From the IMG/VR virus record IMGVR_UViG_3300021373_002579, positions 1-25,413 of that record: a stretch of 25,413 nucleotides of DNA, one strand, 5' to 3'. Source of the stretch: a virus. The translations under genes were made by a program, and so were the position numbers. This document shows, piece by piece, positions 7,023 through 25,413 of the stretch. A model generated the notes under the pieces. That model saw only the letters and a program-made list of their open reading frames with translations. It made no database searches and was not told the origin of the DNA. The number at the start of each line of letters is the position of its first letter. Positions within the stretch are counted from its first letter, which is position 1.

Positions 7023-7502
7023 ATGGCGATAAAGAAAACATATGGAGTAAATTTTCCATTCAGAGAAAGTACTGAAGGTACTTATCTGGATTTGACTGAA
7101 ACGGTACCTGAAGAAATACGTGCCGATTTACTTCATTTAATACTCACTAGAAAAGGTAGTAGATATTATCTTCCTGACTTTGGGACGAGAATATACGAAT
7201 TTATCTTCGAACCAATGGACGGACCTACATTTGATGCTATTAAATCAGATATTCAGGTTGCCTGTGATAAATATATTCCTAATTTACAGATTAACGATAT
7301 TAGTATTAAACCATATACTGACGACGATAAAAGTCCTGTAGGGGAACTAAATGTTCAAGACCAAGAAGCTACTTACGAGATGTTTGATATATTCAGAACT
7401 GCGGGTGAAGGGGTTGAAGAGTATACCGCCAAAGTAAAGATAGACTATTCTATTAAAGATAGTACCTTTGATACAAAAGATTTCATTATAATTAATATTT
7501 AA
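7023..7502 (+). CDS. 25: Baseplate wedge protein, gp25-like
   Basis: This is a small baseplate wedge subunit of the GPW/gp25 family, which joins the sheath to the wedge in contractile tails and has lysozyme-like sequence features without needing enzymatic activity. The family pattern covers residues 11-95: LDLTETVPEEIRADLLHLILT, then RKGSRYYLPDFGTRIYEFIFE (44-63), where T4 and P2 relatives have a G-rich turn and PDFG. The length of 159 aa suits the family (T4 gp25 is 132 aa). It is the first gene after the terminator and leads the tail block; the gp6-like gene starts 5 bases downstream. The gp25-gp6 pairing is conserved among contractile tails, which supports both calls. Confidence 0.9.
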   Translation: MAIKKTYGVNFPFRESTEGTYLDLTETVPEEIRADLLHLILTRKGSRYYLPDFGTRIYEFIFEPMDGPTFDAIKSDIQVACDKYIPNLQINDISIKPYTDDDKSPVGELNVQDQEATYEMFDIFRTAGEGVEEYTAKVKIDYSIKDSTFDTKDFIIINI

Positions 7503-7507
7503 GACAG

Positions 7508-9346
7508 ATGGCTAATCGTAAAATATCATATACAGAGAGAGATTTTGAAGGTCTAAGACAGGACCTTATTAATTTTACACAACAATATTACCCTGAACTT
7601 ATTGATAATTTTAATGACGCTTCCGTCTATTCAGTATTTTTAGATTTAAATGCTGCTATCGGAGATAATTTACATTATCATATTGACAGAAGTATTCAAG
7701 AAACGGTATTACAATACGCCCAACAAAAGTCTTCAATATATAACATCGCGAGAACTTACGGTCTTAAGATACCAGGAAACAGACCGTCGATAGCTCTGGT
7801 AGATGTCTCAATTACAGTGCCCGCTTTTGGAGACCAAGAAGATAGTAGATATCTAGGGATAATACGTTCAGGTTCACAATTTGTAGGTGCCGGTCAGATA
7901 TTTGAGAATCAAGATGACATAGACTTTAGTACTCAATATAACAGTAAAGGATTTCCTAATAGGACTAAAATACCAAACTTTGATGCCAATAATAGAGTAG
8001 TTAATTATACTATAACCAAAAGGGAGGTTATGGTTAATGGTACCTCTAAGGTATTTAAAAAAGTCATTAATGCGAATGATGTTAAACCTTTCTACGAATT
8101 TTTCTTACCAGAAAAGAATGTTATTAGTATAACTTCTTTAATACAAAAAGATGGAATTTCATACTCAAGTCCACCTACTTATGATGAATTTATAACTTCA
8201 CCTGATAAATGGTATGAAGTGGACGCACTAGCCGAAAACACAGTTTTTGTTGAAGACCCAACAAAAGCGTCAGACAACCCAAGTATTAAAGTAGGTAGGT
8301 ATATTGAAACTGAAAATAGATTTATTTCAGAATACACACCTAAAGGTTATTGTAGAGTACAGTTTGGTAGTGCAACAGTTACCGCTGATGAGCAATTGGC
8401 AGAATTTGCTAGAACGGGTATACCCGTAAGATTACAGGACTATCAAAATAATATCGCGTTAGGTAAAACAGTTAAGGCAAATACTACTATATTTGTTAAG
8501 TACAGGGTAGGGGGTGGTTCTTCATCAAATATCGGAGTTAACACGATTAATCAAATTGGAAATATAAACTTTTCGATAAATGGACCTTCTGAAAATATTA
8601 ATCAAAACGTATTACAAAGTTTAAGATGTAATAATGTTACTGCAGCGATTGGAGGGGGAGACCTACCAACAACAGAAGAGGTTAGAAATATGGTCACATA
8701 TAACTTTGCGGCACAAAAAAGAGCAGTGACTATTAATGATTATAATTCACTAATAAGAACAATGCCTAGTCGATTTGGTGCACCTGCTAAAGCTTCAATT
8801 ACTGAAGAAGACAATAAAATAAAGATAGAAATTCTTTCTTTAGACTCAAACGGAAAGTTGACCGAAAATGTTTCAAATACATTAAAGGATAATATCGCGA
8901 ATTATTTATCAAATTATAGGATGATAAATGATTATATTTCTATTAGAAGTGCAAATGTTATTGACTTAGAATTTGAATTTAGTGTAGCAATGACATCGAC
9001 AGAAAATCAGGGACAAGTAATAACAAATATAGTTAATAGTGTGAATTCTTATCTTTCACCAAATACAAACCTCTTAGGTAAGAATGTAAACATATCTGAT
9101 ATACGTAGAATTATTCAAGATATTCCGGGAGTTAGTACACTCGCGGATTTAAAGGTTTACAACAAAACAGGAGGGCAATACTCCTCTTCTGAAACATCCC
9201 AAAGGTACGTTGATAATGATACTAAACAAATTGAGTTAGTTGATGATACAATTTTTGCACAACCTAACCAAATATATCAGATTAGATTTCCTGAAAAAGA
9301 CATCAAAGTGAGAATCAAACAACTTAAGAACGTAGACTTCTCATAA
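7508..9346 (+). CDS. 6: Baseplate wedge protein, gp6-like (Baseplate J family)
   Basis: This is probably the wedge protein that dimerises with neighbours to form the inner baseplate ring, like T4 gp6, P2 gpJ and TssF. The N-terminus (ISYTERDFEGLRQDLINF, residues 5-22) and the following DASVYSVFLDLNAAIGDNL are typical of T4-like gp6. A Baseplate J-type signature, KRAVTINDYNSLI, lies near residues 401-413, preceded by TTEEVRNM. The C-terminal part (about 480-560) has the usual domain with DIRRIIQDIPGVSTL. Its 612 aa compare with 660 aa for T4 gp6. It is co-transcribed with gp25, and a 70-base gap follows. There is no signal peptide or membrane segment. Confidence is high for the family and slightly lower for strict gp6 equivalence. 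Confidence 0.88.
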   Translation: MANRKISYTERDFEGLRQDLINFTQQYYPELIDNFNDASVYSVFLDLNAAIGDNLHYHIDRSIQETVLQYAQQKSSIYNIARTYGLKIPGNRPSIALVDVSITVPAFGDQEDSRYLGIIRSGSQFVGAGQIFENQDDIDFSTQYNSKGFPNRTKIPNFDANNRVVNYTITKREVMVNGTSKVFKKVINANDVKPFYEFFLPEKNVISITSLIQKDGISYSSPPTYDEFITSPDKWYEVDALAENTVFVEDPTKASDNPSIKVGRYIETENRFISEYTPKGYCRVQFGSATVTADEQLAEFARTGIPVRLQDYQNNIALGKTVKANTTIFVKYRVGGGSSSNIGVNTINQIGNINFSINGPSENINQNVLQSLRCNNVTAAIGGGDLPTTEEVRNMVTYNFAAQKRAVTINDYNSLIRTMPSRFGAPAKASITEEDNKIKIEILSLDSNGKLTENVSNTLKDNIANYLSNYRMINDYISIRSANVIDLEFEFSVAMTSTENQGQVITNIVNSVNSYLSPNTNLLGKNVNISDIRRIIQDIPGVSTLADLKVYNKTGGQYSSSETSQRYVDNDTKQIELVDDTIFAQPNQIYQIRFPEKDIKVRIKQLKNVDFS

Positions 9347-9416: not shown

Positions 9417-12400
9417 ATGCCCAAATCATATAGATTTAGAACTGAAGTTGGTGTTGATAAAGAAGTAAGAATTAACATCGAGCAAGATTTTGATTTCTTA
9501 GAAATTTTATCCTTAAAATTTAAGCAAGAAGATTTGTATGGCAGATTTTGTGCCGACTACGGTGTCGTTGCTGGAAGAGTTGTGGTTAATGGGGGTTTTG
9601 GTGTACCTAATGTAAATGTGTCTATCTTTGTCCCGTTAGACAATATTGATGAACAGGACCCTATAATATCCACCTTATATCCTTATAAAAAGATAACGGA
9701 TAAGAATGAGGATGGGTACAGATATAATTTATTACCTTACGAACAGGAATATGGAGGACATACCCCGACAGGTACGTTCCCAAGTCGAGATGATGTTTTA
9801 ACGAGAAATGAAGTTTTACAGGTATATGAAAAGTATTATAGGTATACTGTCAAAACTAATGAATCTGGTGACTTTATGATTTTTGGAGTACCGTTAGGTC
9901 AACAAAAAGTAGTTATGGATTTGGACTTATCTAATATAGGTCAATTCTCATTAAGGCCGGCGGATTTAATAAGAATGGGCAGGGGTGTAAAAACACAATT
10001 TAACGGTCAACAGTTTAAGTCTAGTGAAGACTTAAATAGTTTACCACAAATAGTAAATATCATTAAAGAAATTGAAGTTTACCCTTTTTGGGGTGAAAAT
10101 GATATATGTGATGTTGGAATTACTAGAACGGATTTTGATTTGAGAGATGAAGGAATTGAAATAAACCCGACTTCGATTTTTATGGGTTCTATATTTTCCA
10201 CAGTAAAAGATGAATATCTAAGGGCAAATTGTAAACCAAAAAACAAGTCAGGAAAACTGTGTGATTTAGAAACGGGACCTGGTCAAATATTAGCTTTGAG
10301 ACAAACCATTGACGTTGACTTTAGCGGGAGACCAATCATTGAAGAATATAAATTAGAAGAAGGTGGTAATGTGATTGATAGTGACGGGGTGTGGATGATT
10401 GACTTACCAATGAATTTAAATTATGTCACCACTAATGAGTTTGGAGAACAAATTATTTCACCCGACCCCAAAAACGGTATACCGACAAAAGGTAGGTATA
10501 GATTTAAAATAAAATATCAGAATGAAGGAGGATTAGATGAGGATGTTTTACGTGCTAATTATTTAGTACCAAACATTAAAGAGCATGGATGGTCAGGTAG
10601 TACGACTGATGAAATACCTTCAGAGGAGAAGAGAAATAAATCATACGCATTTTCACTAAATTGGGATGACTATTATGATAGTGACGCAGCAATAAATTGT
10701 AATGATAGTTTTTATGAATTTAATTACAATAAAGTTTATACCATTGCGAGTCACCTTGACAGATTTAAATGGGGATTTAATAGAAATAAACATTTAGGTA
10801 TAAAAGAGATTAACGATGATACGTGTCGCTCAACAAACAACACACCACCAGTAAATGACGCGTCTAGAAGAAATAGCCCATTCATATTTCTATTCAATTT
10901 TCTTCTTAGTATAGTAACAGTACCTTTAGTTACTTTGATAATAATTGCTCATGTATTGGCGTTCATATACCCGATATTAAGAATTATCATAAATATTATA
11001 GTTGCAATAATAAATGGAATTATTTATGCCTTATGTAAAGCGGTTGCTTGGATACCTGGGGTAAACTTAGAGTGTAAAAAATCAACAATAACGCCATTAC
11101 CGAAGGATAACCCATTTAAGACAATTGCACTACCTATGATGTCATATCCTGACTGCGAGGCATGTGAATGTAAAACAAGTCCAACGGATAATAGTAGTGA
11201 ACAGGAAGAGTCTGCATTACAAGCAGAAAGTGATATGGCTTTCGGAGCGTTATTAGACGCTACTACGATAAGTAATTTTGAGTATGACCCAATACAATCT
11301 GCCGCAAGTTACGAATGTCCATACTATTACCCCGGTATGCAAAACACTTACTTGTATAGATTGCAACAACAAATACTTGGTTCAGGAAGTGAAAACAACA
11401 ATGATAATGGTTATTATCGAGATTTAATTTTAGAAAATGATTCATTAGCTGGAGGTACTGACAAAGACCAAAAAGAGTGGTACAAATCACCGATATATCC
11501 AGTATTTAAAGATTTCGGAGCAGACAGTAATAATGGGTATAAGATTAGATGGAAGTTTCAGTATAACCCAACATGGGCTCAAGCTCTTAACTTGATGAAT
11601 AGAAGACACATGTACTTCGGCGATAACGGTAATAGTGGTTTGTTTTGGACAATGCAGAATAGCACAGGATTCCGTACAACGAATAGAATAGAGGTTAGGT
11701 GTGTAAATGATGAGTTTGGTTCACAAGACGGCGCACCGTGGACTGATATGTGTAATGTCTTCTTGTTTGACCCAGGTACTGAAGTTAAAACGGGTACTCT
11801 AATGACGTTTAATGACTTAAACAATATTGTTGACCCTAACTTAGACACTCACCCAGGAGGTAACCAATTTGGTAACACATCAATAACAGGTCAGACGAAT
11901 GGAAATCCTAATGGGTACACAACAGTTCCTGTACCATATGTAAAGGTAAACGGACAACAGGGTACAGGATATGCTAATTTAGTAGTAACAGGAACCACTT
12001 CTTTCTATACATTTAAAAGTGGTGTTGAATACTTTCAGGTATTGACTGCTATGACAATTAGTGAATTGAGTACTAAGTTAAAAAATGACGAATTAAATAG
12101 TTTACTTAATAAATTTGTAAGGAGATACAGAACTAAACATGGGTGTAGTTTGGGTTCTGATTTAGAAGATGGTTTTGAGTCTTCATATAAATCTACTGAA
12201 CACGCGGTTGATTGGGAAAATATAGTCGTAGGTTTCTTTGTAAGAGGTGTTGACGTTTATACGCCTAGACAAAAAATGAGATATGATTTATCTAAACTAT
12301 TTGGTTGGGGTGTATATGATGAGAATGTATATGTGAGTAATATTGTTGTTGAAGGTGATTATTATATGAATGTACCTATACAGCCTAATTATGGTGATAG

Positions 12401-14594
12401 TGATGATGAGTGGTGGAGTTCATATAAATCACCCTCACCACACTATGAACTTGATGGAAACAATGTCGGTGGAATTAACTTACCATGGAATTCAGGGACA
12501 AACGGTGACGGAAACAACTGGAACCCATCAAATAGATTATATCATACTTCATATACATTCACCCCAAAACAGTCTGATTGGGAGACATTTAGAACTTATA
12601 GTTTTAATAAATATGTTTCATTAGATGGTCAGTGTAATAATCGTATGACTGGATATATGGGTGAATTTGCGACAAATGTTGAGTCAGAAAACTTTCCCGA
12701 TTCAGGACTTAATCCTTGGATGCAAAGAGGTATTGAAGGTTGCGGATATCAATGGGCGGATTATACCGGTACGGGTGAAGATAAAAGAGAAAGACGGCTT
12801 GATGAAAATTCACACAGAATAACCTCAGTATGTTCATTGTACTTACCTAAAAACTTTGAAGGTAATGGAGACGGCACATATCCAAACGATGTACCGTATA
12901 CCGATATGGTAAGACACGATAAGATAGTATTTAGGTCAGATAGATTACCCTCTGGTGATGTATTTGAAAATTTTGATGGAGATAGAAAAACATTCAGAAG
13001 ATATGTTCTACATATGAACAATGTTCAAAAAATATATTTTATTAGTGACGATGGTGTTATAACTACAGGTGCGGGTGGTGAAGTAGTTGGTGCCGCGGAT
13101 GACAGTGGTAATTCTGCAGATGATTTGGAAGATGCAAACCAAACAGTGTCTAACGTGATATCATCATTCAGTTGTGGTGGTATGGTACCCTTAGGATGTT
13201 ACGAAGGTGAAGGTGATGAATTTGACATACAGAATCCGTGTTATTTAAGTGAGAATCAAGTGTGGACTGGTTCTGAGAGAGTAGTGAATGGATGTTATAA
13301 TTTTGTAATTAAGAGAGTTATATTATCAATACCTAGAGATTTAATTTTGTTTTTTGAATGGAGAACAAGAATAAGATTTATGTATGCTTTATGTCAGGGT
13401 ATAATAGGTGAAATGTTCCAAAACAATTGGTTAAACGGTACTTTATATATGCCGGCTTTTCAAAAACAAACATTATTTAATTCTGATAATGAGCCTAGAA
13501 GATATCGTTATTGTGGTGACCCACAACAATTTTGGGACAACAGAAAAAATCAAGGACCAGTGTATTTTAATACTGACACTAATTCATTCTTTTACAGGTC
13601 AACACCATTCAACGATGAAAGTAATCAATTTGTAGGTCAAGAACCTGGAAGGTCTTACTATACTGGGCAAAACAAGAAAAACATATGGAGTCCCACCACT
13701 ATAATGGAATTAGGTCCTAGAGATGAGTTCACTAAAGAAATTGCATTTTCACCTGAATTTGAAGGATACTTTGTAGATTTAGTAACATCATCGTCCTATA
13801 AAGATATATCTACTATTATCAATCTATTTGCGGTATCTAGACTCGCTAACTCAAACTTTTTAGAAAACTTATTAAACGCAGGAGACGCTAGTGTAGGTGC
13901 GATATTCTCAAGAGAATTTGATACAATAGCTGACGGCACTGCATTTGCAGATTTTATAACTAATCCATTTGATTCTCGTGTTGATGGTGACTTTGCTCAA
14001 ATGATAAGTATTAATAGTGAATTTGGTGTCTTACCATACTTAGACGGTAATTACGAAGACAGTATTACAGTTGCTGATGATAGGTTTGGTATATGGTTTA
14101 GTTCAAATACCCAAAATAGAAGATTAATAACAGATGGTGTTACAACATTTGGTACAGAAGTAGATGGGCCTACTAATAGATTTGGATACCCTAACTCACA
14201 GATAATACCATACTATATGTGGAGAGTAAAAGACAACGGTCTGTTTGGTACCGAACAAAATACATGGGAAACGTCATGTGTATACGCATCACCATATCAA
14301 GGAGACGACTTTTTTAATGGTAGTGGTAAGTACATGAAACCAAATGCGGGATATGGTCTCGGTTATATTTATAATAAAAACTCTGATGGGTCAGAATTAG
14401 ACGAGTTCCCAACTAATAGTCCTAATGTTTGTGATGACTCTTCTTCGGGAGGTATAATACCAGATGCGTTATCGGATGGTTTAGCCCGAGGAAACTTTAA
14501 AGTAGGTAATCCGTTCCATTTCTATTTTGGGTTAAGAAGAGGAAAAACTGCAATGAGTAGATACATACAAAAATATATTTTTGATTTAGAATGA
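9417..14594 (+). CDS. Giant tail/baseplate protein with N-terminal beta domain and internal hydrophobic segment
   Basis: I cannot assign this 1725-aa protein to a named family; its location between gp6-like and gp7-like wedge genes makes it a tail or baseplate component. Residues about 50-175 look like a carboxypeptidase-regulatory (CNA-B-like) beta sandwich: VAGRVVVNGGFGVPNVNVSI, then YTVKTNESGDFMIFGVPLG. Residues 489-549 are strikingly hydrophobic, with only R522 and K541 as charges, enough for two or three membrane spans. Just after lies C580-xx-C583-x-C585. The rest is rich in Asn, Gly, Tyr and Trp, as in beta-rich fibre or adhesin proteins. Another semi-hydrophobic stretch (about 1295-1350, FMYALCQGIIGEMF) lies near the C-terminus. 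There is no signal peptide. Its stop overlaps the next start (ATGA). It may be a host-contact or membrane-penetrating protein, but that is inference. Confidence 0.85.
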   Translation: MPKSYRFRTEVGVDKEVRINIEQDFDFLEILSLKFKQEDLYGRFCADYGVVAGRVVVNGGFGVPNVNVSIFVPLDNIDEQDPIISTLYPYKKITDKNEDGYRYNLLPYEQEYGGHTPTGTFPSRDDVLTRNEVLQVYEKYYRYTVKTNESGDFMIFGVPLGQQKVVMDLDLSNIGQFSLRPADLIRMGRGVKTQFNGQQFKSSEDLNSLPQIVNIIKEIEVYPFWGENDICDVGITRTDFDLRDEGIEINPTSIFMGSIFSTVKDEYLRANCKPKNKSGKLCDLETGPGQILALRQTIDVDFSGRPIIEEYKLEEGGNVIDSDGVWMIDLPMNLNYVTTNEFGEQIISPDPKNGIPTKGRYRFKIKYQNEGGLDEDVLRANYLVPNIKEHGWSGSTTDEIPSEEKRNKSYAFSLNWDDYYDSDAAINCNDSFYEFNYNKVYTIASHLDRFKWGFNRNKHLGIKEINDDTCRSTNNTPPVNDASRRNSPFIFLFNFLLSIVTVPLVTLIIIAHVLAFIYPILRIIINIIVAIINGIIYALCKAVAWIPGVNLECKKSTITPLPKDNPFKTIALPMMSYPDCEACECKTSPTDNSSEQEESALQAESDMAFGALLDATTISNFEYDPIQSAASYECPYYYPGMQNTYLYRLQQQILGSGSENNNDNGYYRDLILENDSLAGGTDKDQKEWYKSPIYPVFKDFGADSNNGYKIRWKFQYNPTWAQALNLMNRRHMYFGDNGNSGLFWTMQNSTGFRTTNRIEVRCVNDEFGSQDGAPWTDMCNVFLFDPGTEVKTGTLMTFNDLNNIVDPNLDTHPGGNQFGNTSITGQTNGNPNGYTTVPVPYVKVNGQQGTGYANLVVTGTTSFYTFKSGVEYFQVLTAMTISELSTKLKNDELNSLLNKFVRRYRTKHGCSLGSDLEDGFESSYKSTEHAVDWENIVVGFFVRGVDVYTPRQKMRYDLSKLFGWGVYDENVYVSNIVVEGDYYMNVPIQPNYGDSDDEWWSSYKSPSPHYELDGNNVGGINLPWNSGTNGDGNNWNPSNRLYHTSYTFTPKQSDWETFRTYSFNKYVSLDGQCNNRMTGYMGEFATNVESENFPDSGLNPWMQRGIEGCGYQWADYTGTGEDKRERRLDENSHRITSVCSLYLPKNFEGNGDGTYPNDVPYTDMVRHDKIVFRSDRLPSGDVFENFDGDRKTFRRYVLHMNNVQKIYFISDDGVITTGAGGEVVGAADDSGNSADDLEDANQTVSNVISSFSCGGMVPLGCYEGEGDEFDIQNPCYLSENQVWTGSERVVNGCYNFVIKRVILSIPRDLILFFEWRTRIRFMYALCQGIIGEMFQNNWLNGTLYMPAFQKQTLFNSDNEPRRYRYCGDPQQFWDNRKNQGPVYFNTDTNSFFYRSTPFNDESNQFVGQEPGRSYYTGQNKKNIWSPTTIMELGPRDEFTKEIAFSPEFEGYFVDLVTSSSYKDISTIINLFAVSRLANSNFLENLLNAGDASVGAIFSREFDTIADGTAFADFITNPFDSRVDGDFAQMISINSEFGVLPYLDGNYEDSITVADDRFGIWFSSNTQNRRLITDGVTTFGTEVDGPTNRFGYPNSQIIPYYMWRVKDNGLFGTEQNTWETSCVYASPYQGDDFFNGSGKYMKPNAGYGLGYIYNKNSDGSELDEFPTNSPNVCDDSSSGGIIPDALSDGLARGNFKVGNPFHFYFGLRRGKTAMSRYIQKYIFDLE

Positions 14595-18767: not shown

Positions 18768-19676
18768 ATGGCGTTAGGTACATACGGAACAACAAGACCA
18801 TCAGATATGTCTCCCGAAGATGTGGAGATAATACTGAATTACACACCCTCAAGAGACGTTACTAATGATTTTGAGTTAAAGAAACTAAACGCTTCAGATG
18901 TTTTAACACCATATTTTCATAACGCAGACACGGGTGGAAATGCTGATGTTGAAATACTCGGAGGTATGTACAATCTCAAACTACCTGCCGATGAGTTTAA
19001 TGAGATTGGTATCTACACATTATATATTAGACCTGTAGAGATAAGAACAACGATAACTGACTGCGGTGTTTTATCTGCGTTACCCAACGTCAAAGGGGTT
19101 ATTGTGGACTTGAATCAGGTACCTGCACAATATAGAAATAGGTTTGTAAATCAAGGTTTAGTAGGTCATAGAATTGAGTACCTAAATGATGATGGTAGTA
19201 AAATAACTAATTTTTATAGAATTATTACTTCATCATTTTACTGTGAACCTGTAGTTACAAACCTAACTAATTCATCTCAAAAATCGATAAGATATCGTTA
19301 TGTTGAAAGTGGTAGTGATTTGTTATTTTGTACTGTATCGCCGGCAAGTGCTCCATCTAATAAGCCAAATGCGACTCCATTTATAGGTCAACCAAACCAA
19401 AACATTATAATAACTAATACATTCTTTAATCCGATAAGTGTTGAAATTGAAATGGCGGAACACGATATAGATACATTAGCAATTGCACTTTACGGTAACC
19501 AAACTAAATCAATTGAAGATGGTGTTTACACTCTATATGATAGAGACCTTAACATATACAAACAATACAACCTTTATGAGATTCGTGATGAGTTTAATAA
19601 TCTACTTTATGAGGTACGTCAGGACCGAGGAGGTAACATAGACTTTAGTAAGAACTTTACAAACATCACAGGGTAA
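18768..19676 (+). CDS. Unrecognised 302-aa tail-region protein
   Basis: I do not recognise a named family. The protein looks well folded: a polar N-terminus with MSPEDVEIILNYTPSRDV, then a compact region with LGGMYNLKLPADEF and IGIYTLYIRPVEI (about 65-92), then DCGVLSALPNVKGVIVD, and a C-terminal region ending in NLLYEVRQDRGG. The alternation suggests mostly beta structure. It lacks membrane segments, a signal peptide and repeats. It lies directly before the gp7-like gene, whose ATG shares one base with this stop (TAATG), so both are probably made in fixed proportion. A baseplate wedge or adaptor role similar in place to T4 gp53 or gp8 is possible, but I see no sequence signature for either. 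Confidence 0.8.
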   Translation: MALGTYGTTRPSDMSPEDVEIILNYTPSRDVTNDFELKKLNASDVLTPYFHNADTGGNADVEILGGMYNLKLPADEFNEIGIYTLYIRPVEIRTTITDCGVLSALPNVKGVIVDLNQVPAQYRNRFVNQGLVGHRIEYLNDDGSKITNFYRIITSSFYCEPVVTNLTNSSQKSIRYRYVESGSDLLFCTVSPASAPSNKPNATPFIGQPNQNIIITNTFFNPISVEIEMAEHDIDTLAIALYGNQTKSIEDGVYTLYDRDLNIYKQYNLYEIRDEFNNLLYEVRQDRGGNIDFSKNFTNITG

Positions 19677-22627
19677 TGGCGGACAACAAATATAGATATC
19701 CACCGGCTCCCCCTAACGCTAGGGGGACTTTTTCAGATGAACTTGTCGGTTTTCAATTAATCGATGGTGGAGGTCTTACGCAAGGTAACTTTGAATTTAG
19801 TACTAATGTTGTTGAAAAGGTAAATAGAAAATTCGACACAGGTGTTTTTTCAGAACCGATATCACTTAATGATTTAGACTTTAATAGTTTAGAGGAATCT
19901 AAATTGGTAATGGCTAAGAACTTTAAAGTCTACCCAAATTTTGACATATCTAAAGTCACTAATTTCTCGATATATGGTTCAATAAGAAAAAGGTTCTCAG
20001 CTTCTGTTACAAAGATAATAAATTACTTCCCTGCAGGTATACAGGTTGATAAGATTTATTATGGATTAACAACTGGATATACTGCATATAACATTGATTA
20101 TGATGATGTTGAAGGTTTAACTACTTTTGATATTGATGTGGCAAGATTTAAGAATAATTTTGATATTGATTATTCTGAAAACGCGGATAGAAATATTTCT
20201 GTTAGACCGATGGAGGTTAGTCCACTTAGGAATTTGACAAGAAATTTTTTAAAATACTCACTATTTTTTAGTGATTTAGAAAAAGAATATAAGTTTGTAG
20301 ATTTTGACCCATCACCTAGATTATCTGCGGGTACTGTTACAATTGTTGTTGAAGGTAACCCATTTAGTGGTGAGCAAGAGTCTACTAGGTCTATTATATT
20401 AAAACCTAATAAAATAGAGACTGAAAAGGCTTTTAAAGACCCATTCGACGAAGTTGAGGATTTCTTAATTAATAGAATGGTATCGCCAAAATACACCGCT
20501 GATTTTCAGTTTATGAGGGAAGGTGAAGATGGTAAATTTTACAAAACTAAACAAAAAGTAACATGGCCATTAGATGGTTTTTGGAACTTAGATATAAGAA
20601 CTGATAGTTTTGATAGTTATCTTGAGCAATTAAATATAATTGCTGATGATATAGATGAGTTTAGGTCAGACTTAATTTCTAGATTTTTAACAACAGGGGC
20701 ATTTAAAGACTTTGACACTCAGAGTCAAAAAGTAGAAAAAGTCTTACAACTTTACGGAAGAAGTTTTGATGAAACAAAAAAATTCATTGATGCTTTAGCA
20801 TTTATGAACTCAGTAAATTATACGGTAAAAGACGATATTCCGTCACAACTATTACAAAACTTAGCCGAGACGTTAGGTTGGGATACAAATATTTCAATGA
20901 TAACGAACGAGGATTTCTTAAAGAGTGTTTTTGGGGACGGTGAAAAGTCGGCGTTTACAGGTCAAAGTAGAGCCAAAACACCCACCGAACTTGACCAACA
21001 ATACTACAGAAATCTAATTTTAAACTCAGCATACCTGTTTAAATCTAAAGGTACTCGAAGGTCTATTGAGTCTTTGATGAGAATGATAGGTGCGCCTGAA
21101 GCGTTGATAGAATTTAATGAGACGATATATCTTGCGGACGGACCTATTAACATCGAAAGATTTAATGAAGAATATGCTACTATAACAGGAGGTACAAAAA
21201 CAACAGAAACACCAGTATTAAATCCAAACGTTACATTTAGCTTTGAAGGTGTTCAATACACGGGTTTCACAACTGAGTTATCGATAACTTCAGTTGACTC
21301 TACAAGGGATGATTATCCTATAGACGAGTACGGTTACCCTAAGGCGATGACACCTACGGAAGATATTTTCTTTGAAAAAGGCGCGGGTTGGTATGAACAG
21401 ACACCTGAACACAGGTCACCTGAACAAGTTGATGTTAGTGGTTCAGTATTTACAGGTCAAAATCCTGACGTGCAGACTGTATTAGAGCCATTTACTTATG
21501 GTGAGAAATACTTTGATAGGTTTAGACATTTCCCATATATGGATTTAGGGTTTGGTATTACGACTGTTAAAGACAACAACAAATCGTGGACAGACAACGA
21601 GTTAGGTTTGAGAAGAAACACTCAAGCGGGTTATGACGCACATTATATCGTTAATGACGAAAGATTAGTATTGAATAGAAAAAATATAGACTTAAGTCTT
21701 AATATGGGTCAAGGTATAATATATGACATATGGACAATGTCAAAAAAATATGATTACCCATTCCCATCTACAGGACTTACATCACCATATCCATATCCTA
21801 AAGGGGTTGACTGGACAGTAATTAATCCAAAGCCAAAAGAAAAAACTTTTTTTGAATTCGCTCAGTCATTCTATCGTAATATGATTAACGTTAGAAATCG
21901 ACAAACAATAACTGATGGTAAGGGAGGAGGTTACCCAACACTACAATCAGTATATTGGAAATATTTACAGTCGGAAGAAAATGTAGGTATACCATCTAAT
22001 AAATACACATACCAAAAAATGATTGATTTCACAAATGGAATTGGTGATTATTGGATGAAACTTGTTGAACAGATGATACCTGCATCTACCATATGGATGG
22101 GTGGTCAAAAAATGGAGAATAATGTCTTACAAAGACAAAAGGTTGTTTGGAGACGACAGAGAGGGTGTGTATTAGTACCTATACCCTGTATACCATGTAC
22201 TTTTTCTGGACAACTATTAGGTGCGGATTGTGTAACACAAACACTTACCTGTGATATCGGTCTTACTAATCCACAAACAACATTAATTAACAGTATTAAT
22301 AGTGCGATTTCAAATGAAGGGTACAACATAAGTGATTGTGTTCTTAATACATTAACTAGTTTATGGTATGTCGATATAAGATTGAGCGGTACTTTATTGA
22401 GAAAGGACTTATTCTACACTGGTTATGGAGGGGGTGATTACCCATCAAATCAACTATGGATTGCGGCTGTAGAAAATTCGTTATCTAATTTATCTCAGGA
22501 AGGTTTAGGTTATGAAATCGATGGGACTGAGATAACAGTGTCAAATATAGGGTGTAATAATGATTTTACTAATAAAAGTTTGCAAATAAATGTAGGTGTT
22601 AATATAAGTATTAATTGTACATCATGA
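19676..22627 (+). CDS. Baseplate wedge protein, P2 gpI/gp7-like
   Basis: This 983-aa protein is probably the third wedge subunit, equivalent to P2 gpI, T4 gp7 and Afp12. The support is a central region like phage tail protein I: helical residues about 310-400 with DDIPSQLLQNLAETLGWD, then YYRNLILNSAYLFKSKGTRR (443-462) and MIGAPEALIEFNE (470-482), matching the family pattern of a helix, a KGT turn and a G...E ending. A later conserved-looking stretch, YWMKLVEQMIPASTIWMGG, precedes a basic end (VVWRRQRG, 823-830). From C831 (CVLVPIPCIPC) to the end comes a cysteine-containing extension of about 150 residues of unknown role. gp25- and gp6-like genes in the same operon support the call, although five genes intervene. 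The stop overlaps the next start (ATGA). Confidence 0.6.
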   Translation: MADNKYRYPPAPPNARGTFSDELVGFQLIDGGGLTQGNFEFSTNVVEKVNRKFDTGVFSEPISLNDLDFNSLEESKLVMAKNFKVYPNFDISKVTNFSIYGSIRKRFSASVTKIINYFPAGIQVDKIYYGLTTGYTAYNIDYDDVEGLTTFDIDVARFKNNFDIDYSENADRNISVRPMEVSPLRNLTRNFLKYSLFFSDLEKEYKFVDFDPSPRLSAGTVTIVVEGNPFSGEQESTRSIILKPNKIETEKAFKDPFDEVEDFLINRMVSPKYTADFQFMREGEDGKFYKTKQKVTWPLDGFWNLDIRTDSFDSYLEQLNIIADDIDEFRSDLISRFLTTGAFKDFDTQSQKVEKVLQLYGRSFDETKKFIDALAFMNSVNYTVKDDIPSQLLQNLAETLGWDTNISMITNEDFLKSVFGDGEKSAFTGQSRAKTPTELDQQYYRNLILNSAYLFKSKGTRRSIESLMRMIGAPEALIEFNETIYLADGPINIERFNEEYATITGGTKTTETPVLNPNVTFSFEGVQYTGFTTELSITSVDSTRDDYPIDEYGYPKAMTPTEDIFFEKGAGWYEQTPEHRSPEQVDVSGSVFTGQNPDVQTVLEPFTYGEKYFDRFRHFPYMDLGFGITTVKDNNKSWTDNELGLRRNTQAGYDAHYIVNDERLVLNRKNIDLSLNMGQGIIYDIWTMSKKYDYPFPSTGLTSPYPYPKGVDWTVINPKPKEKTFFEFAQSFYRNMINVRNRQTITDGKGGGYPTLQSVYWKYLQSEENVGIPSNKYTYQKMIDFTNGIGDYWMKLVEQMIPASTIWMGGQKMENNVLQRQKVVWRRQRGCVLVPIPCIPCTFSGQLLGADCVTQTLTCDIGLTNPQTTLINSINSAISNEGYNISDCVLNTLTSLWYVDIRLSGTLLRKDLFYTGYGGGDYPSNQLWIAAVENSLSNLSQEGLGYEIDGTEITVSNIGCNNDFTNKSLQINVGVNISINCTS

Positions 22628-25413
22628 GTATTACAAAATACATAACAGATACTGTAAAAACATTTTTTACCAACTCATCATCTACTGATGTTGGTCTAAA
22701 TGAGGTGCCTACTGTTGATAGTGTATTAAATGAACCACAACAAAATTGTTATAGATGGGATAGATGTGATGGAGGTAGTGGTAATATATATACCGTAACT
22801 TCTTACACACCTACTGATGACACGGTTCTTTATTACGGAGTTTGTTATGAACAAAGTAATGATATAGTAATTGCTGAACCTACGGATTTATCATCTATAC
22901 CTAGTAATCAATTTTTTGGTAAATGTTCTCTTTGTAGTCCTTGTAATTTAGGATGTAGTTTAACTTTTGGTCCAGTATCGCCGAGTGTTACACCAACTAA
23001 TACAGTAACACCAACACAAACACCGAGTAATAGTGTTACACCTTCAACTACGCCGTCGATTACACCAACGACAACACCAAGTAACACTACTACACCATCA
23101 GTAACTAGTACACCTGATGAGTCACCTTCAACTACGCCGTCGATTACACCAACGACAACGCCAAGTAACACTACTACACCATCAGTAACTAGTACACCTG
23201 ATGAGTCACCTTCAACTACGCCGTCGATTACACCAACGACAACGCCAAGTAACACTACTACACCATCAGTCACACCAACGACAACACCAAGTAACACTGC
23301 TACACCATCAGTCACACCAACACCAACAATTAGTGTGACTCCAACAGTTACACCATCTTCACCTGAGGATGTTACATGGTATCGAGTAGGACTTTGTTGT
23401 GAGTCAGACACACCACCTGTAGTTGACTTAGGGGTTTCTGGAGGTACTGCTAATCCTAATGACGGATTACTTTATGATGGTGTTAGTATATCCTTAGCTT
23501 CGGGCGGAAACCCAAGTAGTGATGTAATCGACGCATCAGAGTTAATTGCAAACTACTGTAGTACTATTACTTGTCCATCACTAACACCAACAACTACAGT
23601 TACACCTACAACCACACCTACAACCACACCTACCATAACAACAACACCTACAAACAGCGTTACCCCAACAGTTACTGCGACACCATCATCATCAGTACCT
23701 GAAACATACAGTAGATATTCGTTAAATACTTGTTGTGACAATCATTATCCGGGTGTTGTCACAATTACCGAGGCAAATATATTAGATAGTTTAGGTGTTG
23801 GACCTGGAGATATAGTTGCTTTGGATGATATTTGTTACACTATTTTTCAAGCGATACCTGGTGAAGGTCCGAACACTCCATCTACACAAGTATCTTATGT
23901 TGATTGTGAAACCTGTTTATCTAATGTATCTGTAACAAATAGATGTGCACATACATATGTGGCCTGTTTTGAAGATTCATATGGGGCGGGTGACCTTATG
24001 GCGGCACCGACAAGAGTTAATACACTCATATCAACAAACAATCCTGTTGGTACTGCAGATGAAAACATCAAATTTACACATAATGTAGATAATTCAGATG
24101 GAACAGAAGTATCATTTGATGATTGTTACACATATGACCCGACCTATAATAGTTCACATACATTTAAAATACAAACCGACCAACATAACGGATGTTGTGC
24201 TGATAGTGTAAAATGTGGTGGGGCATACGTTATTTTAAGAACTTGTGATGATTATGTGGGTTCGGTAACATCACTAAATGGACAACAATTAGAGGCGTTA
24301 ACTCTAATGCCTTGTGAATTTGTTTCAGGAAGTTCAATAGGTGGAGGTGTTGTACAATTAACAGATACGATACAGTCACCTGAACTATTAGGTAGTGAAT
24401 ATTACTTAGGTACCTCACAAGACACAATAATATATAATGATGGATTTAGTGGTATTTGCTTCACGATAGTAGGTAACACAAGTAATCTAAACTCACAACA
24501 AACACAATTACAAGGTACTGATTGGGTTACTAACTCACAAGTAGTAAATAATTGTAACAATAGTGATTGTCATTGTTTAAACGATATTGTTATGACAAAT
24601 AACAATATTTCGTCATACACTATAAAATATTTAGAATGTGGGGTTACAGGTTCAGGAAACTTTACGTCAGTACCTGTACCTGCGGGTGGAACAACAACGT
24701 TAACCGACTGTATTAATGTAAACTCATTAGTTTTATTTAGAACAAATGATGGACAAGTTGCAAATGTGGACTTTGATTATAGCTCTGTGGGTAGTTGTAA
24801 TCAGTATGTGTATTTTGAAGGTGCTGGTATTTCACAGTGTTGTGATTCAACCGATACACCTATAACCACCGATATAGGATTACCGTTAAGTGCAGGTATA
24901 GGTGAAAATGATTATGTTGTTATCAATGGAGACGCCTATCAGTTAGGTTTGTACAATAGTTCATCGACAGGTACTATCTATACAAATGTTACAGGACCAT
25001 ACGCGGATTGTGATGATGCGGTTACAAACGCAACAAATCCGTGTAGATATGATATGGAACCATGCTGTACACAAGTTAATGGACCATCTTATTACGCACC
25101 ATTCACATTAGAAGTGAACACTATTTTAACTAATGGAGACACTTTCTATAACACAGTAGTATCACCTTATCCAACTGTCACAGATAAGTGTATGTCTGTA
25201 CAAACCTATACTGGGAATTATTCTGTGGATACTGTATTTTGGCAAAACATAACCTTTATCGGTAACGGATGTATTAATAGGTGTCAGAGATGCACATTCT
25301 TAGTTAGACCATGTAGTTGGTCGACCAACTATATCTTGTGGTATGTTAACACACAACCAGGTATGACAGTGGGTAGTGTTTGGGAAGATACAGGATTAGC
25401 AGCTTGGCTAAGT
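22624..25413 (+). CDS. Large modular cysteine-rich, Pro/Thr-linker tail or adhesin protein (3' end outside window)
   Basis: This open frame starts at the ATGA overlap with the gp7-like gene and runs 930 codons without a stop to the right edge, so the protein is incomplete. It has a modular build. Cysteine-containing modules lie at about residues 41-107, 251-318, 361-432, 533-651 and 728-799, with the start of another at 890. Each module begins with an aromatic/hydrophobic strand and C or CC, has a central (C)Y or CF strand, and usually ends Y/N-x-x-C with a further C. Pro/Thr linkers separate the first three (118-246 and 318-360). There is no signal peptide, as usual for phage virion proteins. 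Location at the end of a baseplate block suggests a receptor-binding or decorating tail protein. I do not recognise a named family, and the function is inferred. Confidence 0.85.
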   Translation, partial: MSITKYITDTVKTFFTNSSSTDVGLNEVPTVDSVLNEPQQNCYRWDRCDGGSGNIYTVTSYTPTDDTVLYYGVCYEQSNDIVIAEPTDLSSIPSNQFFGKCSLCSPCNLGCSLTFGPVSPSVTPTNTVTPTQTPSNSVTPSTTPSITPTTTPSNTTTPSVTSTPDESPSTTPSITPTTTPSNTTTPSVTSTPDESPSTTPSITPTTTPSNTTTPSVTPTTTPSNTATPSVTPTPTISVTPTVTPSSPEDVTWYRVGLCCESDTPPVVDLGVSGGTANPNDGLLYDGVSISLASGGNPSSDVIDASELIANYCSTITCPSLTPTTTVTPTTTPTTTPTITTTPTNSVTPTVTATPSSSVPETYSRYSLNTCCDNHYPGVVTITEANILDSLGVGPGDIVALDDICYTIFQAIPGEGPNTPSTQVSYVDCETCLSNVSVTNRCAHTYVACFEDSYGAGDLMAAPTRVNTLISTNNPVGTADENIKFTHNVDNSDGTEVSFDDCYTYDPTYNSSHTFKIQTDQHNGCCADSVKCGGAYVILRTCDDYVGSVTSLNGQQLEALTLMPCEFVSGSSIGGGVVQLTDTIQSPELLGSEYYLGTSQDTIIYNDGFSGICFTIVGNTSNLNSQQTQLQGTDWVTNSQVVNNCNNSDCHCLNDIVMTNNNISSYTIKYLECGVTGSGNFTSVPVPAGGTTTLTDCINVNSLVLFRTNDGQVANVDFDYSSVGSCNQYVYFEGAGISQCCDSTDTPITTDIGLPLSAGIGENDYVVINGDAYQLGLYNSSSTGTIYTNVTGPYADCDDAVTNATNPCRYDMEPCCTQVNGPSYYAPFTLEVNTILTNGDTFYNTVVSPYPTVTDKCMSVQTYTGNYSVDTVFWQNITFIGNGCINRCQRCTFLVRPCSWSTNYILWYVNTQPGMTVGSVWEDTGLAAWLS
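23041..23270 (+). repeat. 84-bp in-frame tandem repeat, about 2.7 copies
   Basis: Copies are at 23041-23124, 23125-23208 and 23209-23270 (partial). Copies 1 and 2 differ by one silent base (ACA versus ACG at 23074-23076). Each full unit encodes 28 residues, beginning PSTTPSITPTTT and ending TSTPDES. It extends the first Pro/Thr linker of the last gene. Confidence 0.97.
23230..23313 (+). repeat. 42-bp tandem repeat, 2 copies, overlapping the 84-bp array
   Basis: Units 23230-23271 and 23272-23313 each encode TPTTTPSNTTTPSV or the one-residue variant with A for T. They overlap the last partial 84-bp copy and suggest a shorter ancestral period. Confidence 0.9.
23575..23703 (+). repeat. Second Pro/Thr linker of the final gene
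   Basis: A low-complexity stretch of ACA/ACC/CCT/CCA codons encodes TPTTTVTPTTTPTTT-like sequence between the second and third cysteine modules. It has short imperfect periods only. Confidence 0.85.

Follow-up and report, generated by a model that had tools for sequence, protein, structure and literature searches.

What does a cysteine-rich protein do for a phage when its gene stands directly behind the baseplate operon, and are its recurring cysteines the mark of a true protein module? The window, which here means the whole linear virus fragment of 25,413 bases that was analysed, runs out inside such a gene (product P0001). An original prediction made from the DNA letters had described the product as resembling a receptor-binding array assembled by duplication from a cysteine module that has no named domain.

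A cysteine-rich gene follows the baseplate operon

The P0001 gene starts with the ATG at position 22624, which shares an ATGA with the stop codon of the gene before it. Residues are numbered either along the ORF, which counts from 22615, or from the ATG, which is the ORF number minus 3. Counted from the ATG at 22624, all 27 residues named in the original prediction are correct. Full-length relatives are present in L002 and L003; their frames measure 1042 and 1028 codons from stop to stop, and they are about 50-55% identical to the window product over its whole extent. Judged by these relatives, roughly 45 residues are missing beyond the contig end. Most of the N-terminal N0 module, which is present in relatives, is gone from the window (22624-22750), apparently by an internal deletion. 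No tRNA or Rfam features were found in the window. The features discussed below are as follows.

7023-9346, + strand: baseplate wedge genes by PHROG, gp25-like (7023-7502) and gp6-like (7508-9346)
19676-22627, + strand: conserved 983-aa gene directly upstream of the P0001 gene, used as syntenic anchor; 235 relatives in viral contigs
22624-25413, + strand: modular Cys-rich putative adhesin gene (P0001), 930 aa seen, open at the contig end
22747-22944, + strand: M1, probable divergent copy; profile-profile 81% against window-clade modules, conserved in L013, L014 and L028
22969-23376, + strand: Thr/Pro/Ser linker 1, with an 84-bp DNA tandem repeat (2.8 copies, 99% matches, 23039-23270)
23368-23580, + strand: M2, clear copy by independent profile; exchanged between L002 and L003 by DNA comparison
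23584-23706, + strand: Thr/Pro linker 2
23704-23922, + strand: M3, clear copy (CC...CY...CxxC) by independent profile; modelled with AlphaFold
23938-24216, + strand: M4, Cys-containing segment, module homology unsupported by profile-profile comparison
24217-24576, + strand: M5, probable long divergent copy; profile-profile 68%
24577-24798, + strand: M5b, different Cys-poor segment, not a copy by profile-profile comparison (ATG residues 652-725)
24799-25044, + strand: M6, clear copy by independent profile and profile-profile comparison; CY cysteine replaced by AY
25045-25293, + strand: M7, probable copy; profile-profile 60%
25294-25413, + strand: start of M8, uncertain, cut by the contig end; 33% against M5

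Judged by profiles, M2, M3 and M6 are clear homologues of one domain family, M1, M5 and M7 are probable further copies, and M8 is an uncertain one. The recurring unit first seen by eye is thereby confirmed. M4 (about residues 433-531), which had been proposed as a degenerate copy, finds no support as one, and M7 (C814-C815 to C890) had been overlooked.

The P0001 gene follows a T4-like baseplate operon. Farther upstream lie UvsX-like, DnaB-like and ribonucleotide-reductase genes, then the gp25-like and gp6-like genes (PHROG baseplate wedge subunit matches, E 9e-17 and 2e-23), all on the + strand. P0001 is encoded on this same strand, and its gene has the position in or after a baseplate or tail operon that is expected of a receptor-binding protein. 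Over its full length, the gp6-like protein shares 26-27% identity with counterparts in Flavobacterium phage immuto, in a Microcystis phage and in a large uncultured phage. In immuto (MW353175; cultured, distantly related), annotated tail fibre and tail spike genes end the corresponding tail operon. They resemble the P0001 gene in coming after a baseplate wedge gene, which is homologous to the window's at 26% identity; the likeness is one of synteny only, and none of the 50,697 phage records searched matches P0001. Elsewhere in the operon, the ORF 9417-14594 for a large protein of 1725 aa contains a strongly hydrophobic 60-residue stretch (residues 489-548, window 10881-11060), which resembles two or more membrane helices.

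Predicted fold and cysteines of the module

The module consensus is YxxxxCC ... GDG(F)xxxGxCY ... C(x3-7)C(x1-2)C, and we define the family as CC - GxxxxxxCY - C..CxC over about 65-80 aa. Its fold, which had been left for prediction, could be modelled with good confidence for M3: AlphaFold with a 33-row alignment gave five strands and a C-terminal helix at pLDDT 81.6 and pTM 0.68. We infer that each module would form a small five-stranded beta domain with a C-terminal helix. The M3-M8 stretch, folded jointly with three sequences, reached a pLDDT of 27.8, and this model was discarded.

Canonical copies contain six cysteines. By eye, M2 and M6 of the window and their orthologues contain four and lack the CY cysteine. 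Since the CY cysteine is lost together with a second cysteine, this suggests that it perhaps pairs with one of the last two. The module cysteines would then form disulphides. M3 holds five cysteines within its own borders, an odd count, so the pairing scheme is not clean, and the reducing cytoplasm, where tails are assembled, is awkward for disulphides. It is rather unlikely, though worth weighing, that the cysteines instead bind metal in the manner of a zinc ribbon rather than all pairing; in that case a four-Cys site could consist of C1, C2, C4 and C5, and C3-C6 would be an additional pair. Four cysteines indeed stay in the copies that lack the CY cysteine, and a reducing cytoplasm favours metal sites, whereas the adjacent CC and the terminal CxC differ from the usual two CxxC knuckles. 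Sequence and fold searches, which a zinc ribbon could escape, gave no match to one. We favour disulphide pairing; metal binding would also be compatible with an adhesin.

The absence of a named domain was borne out. P0001 has no match in Pfam, PHROG or NCBIfam, and the members of the module alignment have no convincing family match in Pfam and PHROG. Searches of the PDB with the module model, by Foldseek and VIA-align, gave no E below 0.001 and no credible relative. The best Z (4.3, B. subtilis YdhK) and the weaker IF2/NusG small barrels are within the chance range, and we claim no fold family. Foldseek against viral models gave weak matches, the best-looking of which were uncharacterised phage proteins (probability about 0.8, E about 0.5-1). 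The family phrog_15511 matched the L014 protein (E 7e-11) over a Thr/Pro linker and M3; since no module alignment member matches phrog_15511, this was attributed to the linker. Scans of bacterial genomes with P0001 and L014 gene b, which reach close relatives only, gave no relative, and no description of such a protein was found in the literature searched.

Relatives at the same position

We collected loci via the 983-aa anchor gene: 80 were fetched and 79 parsed, two of which end at the anchor, leaving 77 usable. The next gene carries recognisable modules in 75 of the 77 loci with sequence past the anchor; the genes at this position in relatives encode modular Cys-rich proteins. The layout met most often combines SprB-like repeats with a C-terminal domain, and a small DCCG domain frequently stands before them. 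The window's closest loci have, ahead of the SprB part, Cys modules, further N-terminal Cys domains and Thr/Pro linkers. VWA domains are added in L009, L010, L011, L013, L018 and L019, and in L017, which duplicates L010; in L010, Pfam finds VWA in three stretches (E 6.5e-49) and SprB (E 2e-11). The available text of a jumbo-phage survey describes other lectin domains in tails, and mentions vWA only in assembly or Ter proteins (PMC7824862).

The relatives combine the Cys array with the SprB part in two ways. In L014 and L028, a Cys array gene is followed by a separate gene with DCCG, SprB-like repeats and the C-terminal domain, and the window's Cys array, also a gene of its own, corresponds to the first of these two. 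In L009, L010 and L013, the Cys array and the SprB half are fused in one giant protein that also holds VWA. These layouts would fit an N-terminal array that accreted in front of an older SprB adhesin and later split from it, a direction read from the layouts rather than from a tree.

P0001 itself has no Pfam match to the SprB repeat, which lies in the next gene in L014 and L028. Like the SprB adhesins of Flavobacterium gliding (PF13573), whose repeats have counterparts in the second gene or fused C-terminal half of the relatives, it is long, repetitive and expected at a surface; in contrast to them, the phage proteins are encoded within a tail operon. A similar relationship exists to VWA adhesins (PF00092). 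DxSxS VWA domains alternate with pairs of Cys modules in L009, L010, L011 and L013, whereas P0001 has no match to a VWA domain with MIDAS and contains only Cys modules and linkers. Among the 16 listed VWA copies, DxSxS is present in 11; with the duplicate L017 set aside, it is present in 8 of 13. The other five listed copies, in L009, L011, L013 and L019, lack it, and some may have lost metal binding. The 2902-aa protein of L010 (L010:12940-21645) contains a further large domain at residues 1791-2070, which also occurs in L021, L027 and L034. In L010, L027 and L034, this domain is apparently inserted inside a Cys module, parting the CC half from the CY half, and a DGTSL motif upstream of it may be a degenerate MIDAS.

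Exchange of modules and of the whole gene

The DNA of the P0001-type gene is about 87-100% identical between L002 and L003 over most of its length, whereas module 2, which has Thr/Pro linkers of variable length on both sides, is only 41-56% identical. Most blocks that flank module 2 are at 90-100%; the exceptions are these linkers and the distal half of M3, which is at 68%. A stretch of about 250 residues in the next gene, which includes the first SprB-like repeats, is at 54-74%, after which 99% is reached again. By backbone, the nearest relative of the window is L019, with 81-94% identity in six upstream genes, yet its adhesin is of the VWA type and has no BLAST match to P0001. Conversely, L014 and L028 have backbones only 48-91% identical to the window, yet their adhesin is of the P0001 type. 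The differences between close phages are thus confined to single modules or to the whole gene, and the drop in module 2 together with the mismatched adhesin of L019 supports an exchange of both modules and genes.

Linker-mediated recombination may be the cause; the repetitive DNA of the linkers would then let the phages gain, lose and swap modules. The fragments of 18 relatives, all of them linear and possibly incomplete, showed no reverse transcriptase (PF00078) that would belong to a diversity-generating element. Assembly by duplication, as originally proposed, is borne out for M2, M3 and M6 and probably holds for M1, M5 and M7, but it is an incomplete account, as exchange between phages is also visible. 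Modular phage receptor-binding proteins that are exchanged by recombination form a known kind of tail adhesin. The present proteins share with them cassettes bordered by repetitive linkers and the mismatch between backbone and adhesin relationships. They differ in being built from a Cys module that is absent from Pfam, PHROGs and NCBIfam.

A probable role in host recognition

We consider P0001 to be probably a host-recognition (receptor-binding) adhesin at or near the baseplate or tail tip of a T4-like myovirus. The receptor-binding role named in the original prediction can soundly be inferred from the position of the gene, the domains that accompany it and its rapid turnover; binding as such stays putative. 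P0001 would hang from the baseplate region, with the Thr/Pro linkers as extended spacers. Cysteine pairs (CC, CY, terminal C..CxC) would keep each module rigid outside the cell, and variable module faces may contact host surface molecules. The host probably belongs to the Bacteroidota, as suggested by the SprB repeats and the distant phage relatives, although a Microcystis phage is among the nearest phage relatives of the gp6-like protein. Little is known about the receptors that Bacteroidota phages use or about their receptor-binding proteins. Adhesins of the gliding machinery are candidate phage receptors in Flavobacteriia (PMC7345892, PMC13288928).

The main competing explanation, which we hold to be unlikely, is that the modules decorate the virion, coating the tail or forming whiskers that bind weakly or protect the particle, with true receptor binding left to a downstream collagen-like fibre. 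Long Thr/Pro spacers and repeated domains would suit such a coat, and L002 does have a separate fibre-like gene further on: its P0001 homologue is followed by a SprB-type protein, a Thr/Pro-rich protein and then a collagen-like GTSGSSG fibre. However, sharp module exchange between near-identical phages and replacement of the whole gene, as in L019, are more typical of specificity determinants, and the gene directly follows the baseplate operon. The host-recognition reading is preferred.

A broader proposal is more tentative. It is possible, if somewhat short of an even chance, that, in a clade of T4-like Bacteroidota phages, the unnamed cysteine-stabilised recognition domain is the unit by which host specificity is exchanged, and that it joins MIDAS-bearing VWA, SprB-like repeats, linkers of a mucin-like kind and collagen-like fibres to form tail adhesins whose architecture resembles that of extracellular-matrix proteins. 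An alignable module swapped between near-identical phages would offer a handle linking tail sequence to host range. That relatives pair the module with VWA points to metal-dependent adhesion by a phage tail; if confirmed, this would be unusual.

Module similarity exceeds cysteine composition

We built an independent profile from 25 modules of L009, L010, L011, L013 and L019, leaving out the window and the P0001-type relatives; the family was not chosen blind, since the search that collected these modules started from the window's M2. The profile finds ORF residues 256-320 (M2, 23.7 bits), 368-444 (M3, 14.0 bits) and 738-803 (M6, 8.9 bits). The best scores of 300 shuffles that preserve the cysteine positions have a median of -0.1, with 5 reaching 7.8 and 1 exceeding 15. 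In profile-profile comparison, the window-clade copies match the copies of other phages with a probability of 96.9% (E 1.4e-10), against at most 11% for unrelated control profiles. E-values of an earlier profile search are biased, because those profiles included window copies.

Self-alignment of the modules had been set as the test that could refute the repeat. Pairs of single module sequences gave p 0.002-0.02 against Cys-fixed shuffles, uncorrected for the many pairs. This signal is marginal and too weak to decide, and the proof of the repeat therefore rests on the profiles, by which similarity beyond cysteine composition is clear for M2, M3 and M6, and for these three only.

A search with the module alignment found the module in nine of the 18 relatives' contigs, and four of its matches lie in the L097 protein. 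A profile that did not include L097 detected four copies in the L097 protein (26.3, 23.9, 21.0 and 10.2 bits). It is thus highly improbable that P0001 is merely a low-complexity, fast-evolving protein with a shared cysteine composition and no true domain repeat: weak pairwise tests and the unsupported M4, M5b and M8, for which this is possible, speak for it, whereas for M2, M3 and M6 it is already contradicted by the shuffle test, the profile-profile homology, the confident M3 model and the copies in L097.

The L097 gene (L097:4233-7253, - strand) is a second adhesin-like gene about 60 kb away in L010's contig; its 1007-aa product contains at least four Cys modules, and this protein and its neighbours have an N-terminal domain in common with L014 gene b. 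A CC module is also seen in a 3120-aa Thr/Pro-rich ORF (L098:416-9775, - strand), the N-terminus of which appears Hint/intein-like by eye.
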